This document shows, one piece after another, positions 39,973-42,435 of a stretch of 64,000 nucleotides of DNA. Source of the stretch: a virus; IMG/VR virus record IMGVR_UViG_3300042566_001512, positions 1 to 64,000 of that record. One strand, given 5' to 3'. The notes under the pieces are model-generated. The model was not told the origin of the DNA, did not search any database, and saw only the letters and a program-made list of their open reading frames with translations. Each line of letters begins with the position of its first letter. Positions within the stretch are counted from its first letter, which is position 1. Made by a program: the position numbers and the translations under genes.

Positions 39973-40461
39973 TTATCTTTGAGCTTTTTGAATTTCTTCT
40001 ATTGCTTTTATATCCGAATTAACCTTTGCGGTTAATCTCTTTTGACTATCTTTTAAAATGTAGTCGCATATTACACGAGGATATTGTAAAAACTCTTGTA
40101 AGTTTATACCGTAAAACTCCTTAACATTAGAATCGGCAAAAGCTTTTATAGTGTCAAAAGTTTTACTATATATAAAAGTGTCCTCTCCATTCTGATAGGC
40201 AACGGAGGATAAGGGGCGCACATCGTCTAAGCTAGATGGGTTTGCATCCAGGCTGGCTTGCTTTAGGTAGTCAAATACACCAGAAGACTGCTCATAGGAC
40301 TGAACTAGGAGCTGTTTAACCCCTATGTATGTATCTTTTTTTGCAGTTCTGAGTATCTGAACCAGTAATTCGTTTTGATTTGCTCTAGTACAGAAATCGT
40401 GATCTGTTACATGAGCAACTATCGTTGCTCTATCCGACGAATCTTCTGTACGGCTAATATA
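39973..40461 (-). CDS. -1 frame C-terminal extension of the 491-aa gene (frameshift product)
   Basis: Open without a stop from 40461 to the TAA-type stop at 39973 (162 codons), but with no ATG: the only in-frame start codon candidates (GTG at 40221) lie 80 codons in. The upstream part reads YISRTEDSSDRATIVAHVTD and continues in one piece into the GTG-started reading. It is in the -1 frame relative to the 491-aa gene and joins it exactly at the TTTTTTT site at 40461-40467. Expected fusion: 478 + 162 = 640 aa. It would add a helical, Lys/Asp-rich domain to a fraction of the product. Function follows the N-terminal part. Confidence 0.75.
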   Translation of the reverse strand, partial: YISRTEDSSDRATIVAHVTDHDFCTRANQNELLVQILRTAKKDTYIGVKQLLVQSYEQSSGVFDYLKQASLDANPSSLDDVRPLSSVAYQNGEDTFIYSKTFDTIKAFADSNVKEFYGINLQEFLQYPRVICDYILKDSQKRLTAKVNSDIKAIEEIQKAQR

Positions 40462-40467
40462 AAAAAA
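40413..40467 (-). other. Probable -1 programmed frameshift signal (slippery TTTTTTT plus hairpin)
   Basis: In the 491-aa frame the codons read AAT TTT TTT ATA; the heptamer T-TTT-TTT (40461-40467) allows both tRNAs to re-pair one base back, after which TAT ATT AGC... is read. About 30 bases further, GAGCAACGATAGTTGCTC (40413-40430) is a perfect 7-bp hairpin with the zero-frame TAG in its loop. Confidence 0.75.
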
Positions 40468-41894
40468 TTAGACATTACCTCGATTGGGATTAGTCCTTGC
40501 ATGTGATGATTTTCTCTTAGCTCTCTTTGCTCTTTTCCGCAGGAGGGGCATTTATAAGTAGGTATTGCAATGAGCGATACCGTAGAATCATCGATGAATT
40601 CTTTTATTTTTGTTTGAAAAGTCGTTCGAAGCTGATCATCTGCGGATACGTCTCCGACCACGTTTTCAATTTCTTCTCTTTCCGAATATTCGGTGTCTAA
40701 GTAGTTTATTGATTTTACGAAATGCGCATATTGCCTCATCACGGTAGCCTTAGCCTGCTTAATGAGATATTCGTCTCGTTCCTTCTCGTCCTGTATTAGA
40801 ACTTTAGGATAAGTCTCTTCTATTTCAGAAATCCACCTATAACCGGAATCTATGTGTTCTTGCGCAGTATCTATGGCTATAGTAAAGCTCAAATCTTCGC
40901 TTAGCTTAATAGCCCTGGGATGACCATTTAAGAATTCGTCCTTATAGATGCTCAACGATTCCACCGAGACGCTTGCCTTGTCGCGTTTTGCCATGTGTGC
41001 GATTTGTCTTGCCGTAAGACGTGTCTTGTCAACAAAAAGCAACTTAGATGGATCTAAAAGCTCCGTTACCACATGGCTGCACCTCTCGGGATCACTGGTA
41101 CATGCTCTTTGGTATTGAACCCCGTTTGGCCAAATGGCGCAAACCATCCCCCAAAAAAGGGTTGGCATATCCAGTACATTCATATATTTTTTTATGCTGT
41201 CCCCGTCTGGCAAAATAAGACTAGTGCTCAATATGTGATCTTCGCAGAAGTTCAACATTGCTGCAGAAGAAAAAGAGGTATTGTTGGAGAAGATTAAACC
41301 ATAGGTTGCTCTTCCTAGGCTAACCTTCTCCTCGGTCAAGGCCCTGTACAGCTCCAAAATAGCAGACTCTGAAGGGGCTTTAAATCTAACCCAGAATCCA
41401 GAATGCCACAACGGAACATTAAATGTACCGCCCAGATCAAGGGACTGCCTGATCATCAGGCGAAGGTTTTCACCAGTGAGTTTTTGATTTGGGCCCACCT
41501 TGGCTTTTGCCATCCCTAGGAAAAGAGGCCCTACCGAGGAATCTATCTTCTGTTGAAAATGTGCATCTGCTCTACTTACTGTTGGTACAAAAGCACTGCC
41601 ATAGGCCACAGATTCCATAGACCCCTGCAAAACAGACAGCCAGTGGGAATTAAAGTCAGATACTTTATTGCCCACTTTTGTAACCCGGTCTCTAACAGAA
41701 TCGGACAGATCCGACGGAAGCACGATATTTTCTTTTTCAAAATCTATGCCGTCCTGTAGAGGTTTGCTATATTCTCCATCCAACGTGAAATTAGCAGGAA
41801 GTGGAGTTACTACTTTCGGTTGTTCGGAATCAAACTTTTCAGAATCGTTTTTTGGTTCTGGAATTTCTGGTAAAAAGTCTTCTACGATTGACAT
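40419..41894 (-). CDS. Tail/baseplate assembly protein with zinc ribbon, zero-frame product (491 aa)
   Basis: 491 aa. The N-terminal ~75 residues are acidic and Pro-rich. The body is helical and ends with a zinc-ribbon half, IPTYKCPSCGKEQRELRENHH near residue 450, a form seen in T4 gp26/gp51-type baseplate-hub proteins. The zero-frame product ends 13 codons after the slippery site. The arrangement, short form plus -1 frameshift long form, recalls lambda gpG/gpGT tail-assembly chaperones. RBS AAGGAGAATAATC before the ATG at 41894. The upstream neighbour (41899) is probably co-transcribed. Confidence 0.7.
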   Translation of the reverse strand: MSIVEDFLPEIPEPKNDSEKFDSEQPKVVTPLPANFTLDGEYSKPLQDGIDFEKENIVLPSDLSDSVRDRVTKVGNKVSDFNSHWLSVLQGSMESVAYGSAFVPTVSRADAHFQQKIDSSVGPLFLGMAKAKVGPNQKLTGENLRLMIRQSLDLGGTFNVPLWHSGFWVRFKAPSESAILELYRALTEEKVSLGRATYGLIFSNNTSFSSAAMLNFCEDHILSTSLILPDGDSIKKYMNVLDMPTLFWGMVCAIWPNGVQYQRACTSDPERCSHVVTELLDPSKLLFVDKTRLTARQIAHMAKRDKASVSVESLSIYKDEFLNGHPRAIKLSEDLSFTIAIDTAQEHIDSGYRWISEIEETYPKVLIQDEKERDEYLIKQAKATVMRQYAHFVKSINYLDTEYSEREEIENVVGDVSADDQLRTTFQTKIKEFIDDSTVSLIAIPTYKCPSCGKEQRELRENHHMQGLIPIEVMSNFFILAVQKIRRIEQR

Positions 41895-41898
41895 TTGA

Positions 41899-42435
41899 TT
41901 ATTCTCCTTTAATCACTGCGTCTGATATAACGTTGACGTCGGTAATATCGTTTTGTTTATTTTGAATGAGGGCGGCCATGGCTTCTTGCGCAGGAGCAAT
42001 CTGTTCCAATATGTGGCAAATTACAGGAACGATATTGGCATCGTATATTTCCACGATTTCCTGATATCTACCATTAATCTGAATAACCTCAAGACCTTCT
42101 TCTGGGCTGGAAATCCCCCCAGTTTTGTCTTTGTGATTTTCATGGACGGCGTTAAGTCGCTGCACGTGCTCCATGATGTCTTTATTCAAAAGACTTACGT
42201 TATCTGCCAGTTTTTGTGGATCGTTAATTAGTACGGCAAGTTCTGGCGTGTCCACGATTACTGCCAACTGAGCAGCAAGCTGCCCTTCTACGTTGTGTAT
42301 GGCCTGGGTGGCTACTTCGTAGTGTTTATTGCAGTCATCCCAAAAACCGTTATTTTTTAACGATTTTTTATTTTGTATTGCATCAATTACGCGCTGGTGA
42401 CCTTTGCTGGGTCCTTTGATTTTGTGAGAGCTCAT
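41899..42435 (-). CDS. Hypothetical protein, 178 aa
   Basis: First gene of the two-gene minus-strand unit; its stop is four bases before the start of the frameshift gene. Mostly helical (VEGQLAAQLAVIVDTPELAVLINDPQ) with a basic N-terminus (MSSHKIKGPSKGHQR). No family recognised. Translational coupling with the frameshift gene suggests a shared assembly role. Confidence 0.65.
   Translation of the reverse strand: MSSHKIKGPSKGHQRVIDAIQNKKSLKNNGFWDDCNKHYEVATQAIHNVEGQLAAQLAVIVDTPELAVLINDPQKLADNVSLLNKDIMEHVQRLNAVHENHKDKTGGISSPEEGLEVIQINGRYQEIVEIYDANIVPVICHILEQIAPAQEAMAALIQNKQNDITDVNVISDAVIKGE

Follow-up and report, generated by a model that had tools for sequence, protein, structure and literature searches.

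The stretch of viral DNA considered here (the window) comprises 64,000 nucleotides, positions 1 to 64,000 of the 208,807-base-pair (bp) IMG/VR virus record IMGVR_UViG_3300042566_001512, and belongs to a contig of a phiKZ-like phage whose phiKZ-like genes include split RNA polymerase beta subunits, a DNA polymerase and a terminase. Its minus strand carries a gene of the type of phiKZ gp77 that encodes a protein of 491 residues and reads AAT TTT TTT ATA close to its 3′ end (Table 1). A ribosome slipping one base back on this run would enter a -1 frame that stays open for 162 codons and offers no ATG, GTG or TTG for the first 80 of them; ATG is absent throughout, and GTG first appears at codon 81. 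The fusion would amount to 478+162 = 640 residues, with the junction ...SNFFYISR.... A programmed -1 frameshift at this site had been proposed in an earlier reading made from the sequence alone (the sequence-only reading), and when the window was read again the codons at the run, its position, the length of the open -1 frame with its stop ending at 39973, and the startless first 80 codons all proved to have been given correctly. Taken with the comparisons below, the sequence makes it very likely that programmed -1 frameshifting yields two forms of the protein, a short one of 491 residues and a long one of 640.

Table 1. Coordinates of the features discussed, in the window unless another phage is named.
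Feature	Position	Strand	Remarks
Short form, zero-frame gene	40419..41894	-	491 amino acids; homologue of phiKZ PHIKZ077; PHROG 4585/8054, unknown function
Slippery run T_TTT_TTT (...AAT TTT TTT ATA...)	40461..40467	-	candidate -1 slip site; conserved in relatives
-1-frame extension	39973..40461	-	162 codons + stop; predicted long form 640 amino acids; PHROG 12109, unknown function
Zero-frame stop TAG	40421-40419	-	
CPSC knuckle, C449/C452	40539..40550	-	C-terminal half of predicted split four-Cys zinc site; 25 residues before slip Phe
CTSDPERC, C265/C272	41079..41102	-	other half of predicted split zinc site; ~180 residues upstream
Predicted RNA stem-loop GUACAG...CUGUAC	40388..40451	-	begins ~9-10 nucleotides past slip; encloses the hairpin below
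Hairpin GAGCAAC-GATA-GTTGCTC	40430-40413	-	perfect 7-bp stem, 30 nucleotides past slip
Shine-Dalgarno-like AAGGAG	41904..41909	-	ahead of short-form ATG; read in sequence
Upstream gene, phiKZ gp78 position	41899..42435	-	178 amino acids, syntenic, unknown function
A7 run	40336-40342	-	inside the extension
phiKZ PHIKZ076.4	L008:5314-5556		annotated start at extension codon 85
RAY gp266	L004:3601-4149		annotated start inside gp267
201phi2-1 gp135	L009:2769-3230		annotated start at stop of gp136

A tblastn search with the 491-residue gene matched 242 phage records, 26 of which, together with the window, form an annotated set of 27 genes that includes phiKZ PHIKZ077, 201phi2-1 gp136, SPN3US gp39 and RAY gp267 as well as the genes of PCH45 and Noxifer. 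A scan of viral contigs with a single protein as the query found no relative, and an alignment of all 27 sequences proved too diverse for use as a query, while an IMG/VR scan with a six-sequence alignment gave 73 further contigs. In this IMG/VR set the site was located through the long -1 extension and the genes share ancestry, so that formal probabilities are optimistic. Codons were counted over 96 genes, a set without four IMG/VR contigs whose slip-site codons are atypical and which were inspected by eye. The -1 architecture is shared without exception by the 27 annotated-phage genes and the 73 IMG/VR contigs, and the distant MIZ-Pa99 and YC1 have it as well. Throughout the genes compared, the -1 frame runs for about 147-194 codons beyond a conserved Phe codon that is nearly always part of a Phe-Phe pair; in the annotated set the pair (Phe-Leu in one gene) is followed by a conserved -1 extension of 149-175 residues, which runs past the zero-frame stop. 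The check proposed with the sequence-only reading, whether homologues keep both the slippery run and the frame change, was run, and every homologue examined keeps the two; none has a single uninterrupted open reading frame (ORF). At the level of sequence, this comparison establishes the slip site, the frame change, the conserved extension and its lack of a start of its own.

The choice of codons at the site is also constrained. The strict heptamer, T_TTT_TTT or T_TTT_TTC, occupies the homologous site in 86 of the 96 genes and none of the 50,929 other in-frame positions, and the first slip-site Phe codon is TTT in 96/96, even in some genes whose 14-19 other Phe codons include no TTT. Phe-Phe pairs elsewhere in the same genes begin with TTT in one case of 43 and never form the strict heptamer. 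For the codons at the site in the 27 annotated genes log10 P = -14.9, a value that is optimistic given shared ancestry. The sites that depart from it carry G, A or C ahead of the run, or read CTT TTT A or GTT TTT TC; all retain TTT after a T, so that the Phe transfer RNA (tRNA) can still re-pair perfectly one base back, that is, by a single-tRNA slip. Between the slip and the zero-frame stop, the 96 genes contain no stop in 1,714 codons of the -1 frame, as against 121 in the +1 frame. The Phe at the slip, F477, is one of only four invariant columns in an alignment whose mean column identity is 23%. Since the slip site is kept across a family as divergent as this, possession of both forms must matter to these phages.

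A homopolymer run is a typical site of sequencing error, and an error or a decayed gene would give a broken frame here; about 100 genomes, of phage and metagenome origin alike, change frame at the identical place, which refutes this explanation, and its probability is negligible. Another alternative is slippage at the level of transcription. Phages of the phiKZ type use RNA polymerases of their own, many relatives have runs of 7-9 T, and a polymerase slipping on such a run would produce a mixture of messenger RNAs. We nevertheless hold this to be improbable: 17 of the 96 genes have only 5-6 T, every relative proceeds in the -1 frame, and the T_TTT_TTY phasing found in 86/96 would be irrelevant to a slipping polymerase. 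The phased heptamer and the short T runs therefore fit slippage of tandem tRNAs better than slippage of the polymerase.

Databases present the extension differently, as a separate, truncated "hypothetical protein", and most GenBank and RefSeq records annotate it as a gene in its own right, which would call for a ribosome-binding site of its own or for re-initiation at the zero-frame stop. Many relatives do carry start codons within the -1 ORF. The annotated starts, however, vary widely among relatives (three examples are given in Table 1), the -1 ORF of phiKZ has no ATG, GTG or TTG for 85 codons, comparable to the 80 startless codons of the window, and a start preceded by a Shine-Dalgarno motif occurs within the first 70 -1 codons of only 16 of the 96 genes. 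The second part thus has no conserved start or ribosome-binding site, whose presence would have spoken against a frameshift. A separate gene would also leave unexplained why T_TTT_TTY is kept and why the -1 reading aligns from the slip onward, and we judge it still less probable than polymerase slippage. PHIKZ077 and PHIKZ076.4 of phiKZ (PHROG 4585/8054 and 12109) are the direct homologues of the two parts, in identical order and with the identical -1 frame change, but they are annotated as unrelated hypothetical proteins, with PHIKZ076.4 starting 85 codons late and the frameshift unmarked; their fusion would have 687 residues and the junction STFFYFGG. A joined, frameshifted gene is annotated in none of the records looked at.

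One of the two distant relatives named above, the Pseudomonas phage MIZ-Pa99, has a phiKZ-like block of RNA polymerase beta, gp77-type gene and frameshift (L135:2022-5098); its record files the phage as Straboviridae, and this taxonomy line looks wrong.

The sequence-only reading had also pointed to a perfect 7-bp hairpin downstream of the slip with the zero-frame stop in its loop. The hairpin is present, the TAG covering part of the loop and the first base of the stem, but it caps a longer predicted stem, a structure that relatives do not conserve. Folding of this larger stem gives -24 kcal/mol for a stretch of 92 nucleotides (z = -3.4) and z = -4.5 for 85 nucleotides, which makes a role as a local stimulator of slippage plausible in the window. 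The closest clade has a different predicted stem, ~26 nucleotides downstream of the slip, in which two pairs show double changes and covariation is only weak. An Rfam search gave no match.

What the two forms might do is best approached through the predicted structure of the protein. For the short form AlphaFold gives a confident model (predicted local distance difference test (pLDDT) 87.7, predicted template modelling (pTM) score 0.87), and Foldseek places phiKZ-like and some unnamed proteins first, followed by T4-type baseplate hub proteins: the baseplate hub subunit of Vibrio phage VH7D (E = 3.5e-5), a protein of Aeromonas phage phiA8-29 (E = 9.7e-5) and the baseplate hub assembly chaperone of Acidovorax phage ACP17 (E = 5.4e-4). 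The extension is modelled only in part (pLDDT 75, pTM 0.45), with confident C-terminal helices, and the named proteins that Foldseek matches to it significantly are second ORFs that related phages carry under a mistaken annotation. Other resources added little: Pfam gave no match for the protein and no PF12322 in the 27 homologues or in four whole phiKZ-like genomes, PHROGs returned essentially only families of unknown function (4585 and 8054 for the short form, 12109 for the extension), and the PDB held no match by sequence or by fold. The annotation of phage DT01 already records a similarity to gp26.

Cysteines give a second point of comparison. A C-terminal zinc ribbon like that of T4 gp26 and gp51 had been suggested on the strength of the CPSC motif, which is indeed present but constitutes only half of a predicted four-Cys site whose other half lies ~180 residues upstream (Table 1). 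The four Cys occur as a complete set in 25 sequences of one alignment and 41 of the other and are missing altogether from 2 and 13, with no mixed case; pooled, the site is kept in 66 and lost in 15 of 81 sequences, the losses falling mainly among FLC9-like relatives. Because the pairs C265/C272 and C449/C452 are kept or lost jointly, they fit a single split zinc site. The layout in T4 is comparable, with C82/C84 and C187/C190 in gp26, whose C-terminal end is KCPECGKTHAHVIRGLKEFFELL, and C85/C88 and C185/C186 in gp51, which continues for ~47 further residues. Both T4 proteins belong to Pfam family PF12322, and as separate genes they resemble a short and a long form. The gp77-type protein resembles these T4 proteins by its fold match and by two widely separated Cys pairs, the second immediately ahead of a C-terminal FF.L; a further likeness is the pairing of two proteins, one of them bearing a C-terminal tail. 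Unlike the two genes of T4, the phiKZ-like phages would use one gene and a frameshift, the gp77-type protein is more than twice as long, and its extension of ~160 residues is not recognisably the ~47-residue tail of gp51. A motif in the extension, LxEFLxxPRxxxExxL, looks alike in the gp51 tail by eye; profiles did not support homology of the two, and this candidate was set aside. In a Klebsiella T4-like contig (L124:3001-3750) gp51 itself is interrupted near codon 120 and falls into two frames, by sequencing error or a real change.

Frameshifted pairs offer a functional precedent. In phage lambda, gpG and its -1-frameshifted product gpGT are made at a ratio of ~30:1 and are both absent from the virion; their common part binds the tape measure, and the tail tube protein is bound by the T part. 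Short and long frameshift pairs of this kind are a known signature of tail chaperones (PMC5009743). A chaperone or cofactor role has been proposed for T4 gp26 and gp51 (PMC9024508). The best reading of the gp77-type gene, by analogy, would be a tail chaperone with short and long forms in the manner of lambda G/GT and a fold resembling that of T4 gp26/gp51, and the fold search and the four-Cys layout make a hub or tail chaperone role a good inference. The likeness drawn to lambda is one of architecture: the slip site here is U_UUU_UUY, the proteins are several-fold larger and have the split four-Cys site, and, whereas the tape-measure gene directly follows G/GT, no tape-measure neighbour was seen among the window proteins scanned; in SPN3US the tape measure, gp239 (PMC5105663), is far from gp39 in gene numbering. 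The record of 201phi2-1 has a mass-spectrometry mark on gp138 and none on gp135-137, which gives weak support for absence from the virion.

In the mechanism we propose, most ribosomes on the gp77-type gene would halt at the zero-frame stop and make the 491-residue short form, while a minority would slip one base back on the U run of the two Phe codons near the 3′ end, U_UUU_UUU/C, bypass the zero-frame stop in the -1 frame and make the 640-residue long form with its largely helical extension of 162 residues. By analogy with lambda gpG/gpGT and T4 gp26/gp51, both forms would serve as non-virion chaperones of tail (tape-measure or hub) assembly, held at a fixed ratio, the shared part binding one tail component and the extension recruiting another. 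The slippage itself, the ratio of the forms, their partners and their role in tail assembly are what we infer here, and we consider frameshifted short and long forms with a tail-assembly chaperone role, as a whole, the probable and best explanation of the locus.

Several results weigh against this explanation. Against T4-type proteins Foldseek reaches moderate TM-scores, ~0.4-0.54 when normalised by target length and 0.3 by query, and sequence profiles do not bear out the T4 lead that fold and cysteine layout favour: hhalign against T4 gp26/gp51 gave a probability of 6%, its best stretch being the C-terminal part that ends at FF, a profile search of the whole T4 genome did not make gp26 or gp51 stand out, and profiles detected no similarity between the extension and the gp51 tail. 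No family-wide RNA stimulator was found in the 96 relatives by folding energy or Shine-Dalgarno-like motifs: folding energy directly downstream of the slip (mean z -0.37) does not fall below that of other parts of the gene (-0.34 and -0.50 upstream), and upstream Shine-Dalgarno-like motifs are rarer than in controls. The tape-measure gene had no match among the window proteins scanned, a subset of the ORFs. Finally, the gp77-type gene is a neighbour of a virion RNA polymerase gene.

This last point invites a different function for a genuine frameshift, in which the protein would serve head or inner-body assembly or the loading of the virion RNA polymerase, not tails. In phiKZ and its relatives the gp77-type gene adjoins a beta-subunit gene of the virion RNA polymerase and genes of structural head proteins, and the missing profile link to gp26/gp51 suits such a role. 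The fold search, on the other hand, retrieves T4-type baseplate hub chaperones and nothing named polymerase, the split four-Cys site and the FF.L end are gp26-like, and short/long frameshift pairs mark tail chaperones; we regard this alternative as unlikely. That a two-form chaperone ties virion RNA polymerase or inner-body loading to assembly, in place of tail length, is a rather more doubtful proposition; if true, it would rest on an ancient, universally kept frameshift in phiKZ-like phages, including the nucleus-forming phiKZ and RAY.

Directly upstream of the gp77 homologue, the annotated records have a small gene similar in size to that of the window (phiKZ gp78 position), and its product may be a partner of the gp77-type protein.

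In the open literature searched we found no description of such a frameshifted chaperone gene in phiKZ or jumbo phages, though an earlier account may exist outside it; frameshifting goes unmentioned in the main text of the RAY core-genome paper and of two jumbo-phage overviews. The frame change shared by about 100 genomes makes a far stronger case than one genome allows. It corrects a systematic annotation error, by which phiKZ, RAY, 201phi2-1 and many other phages are credited with a truncated, independent gene in place of the extension, and it offers a testable identity for a gene that is widely conserved in phiKZ-like jumbo phages and has had no known function. A tail chaperone of this kind suggests that the frameshifted G/GT of lambda and the separate gp26 and gp51 of T4 are two routes to one short/long pair.
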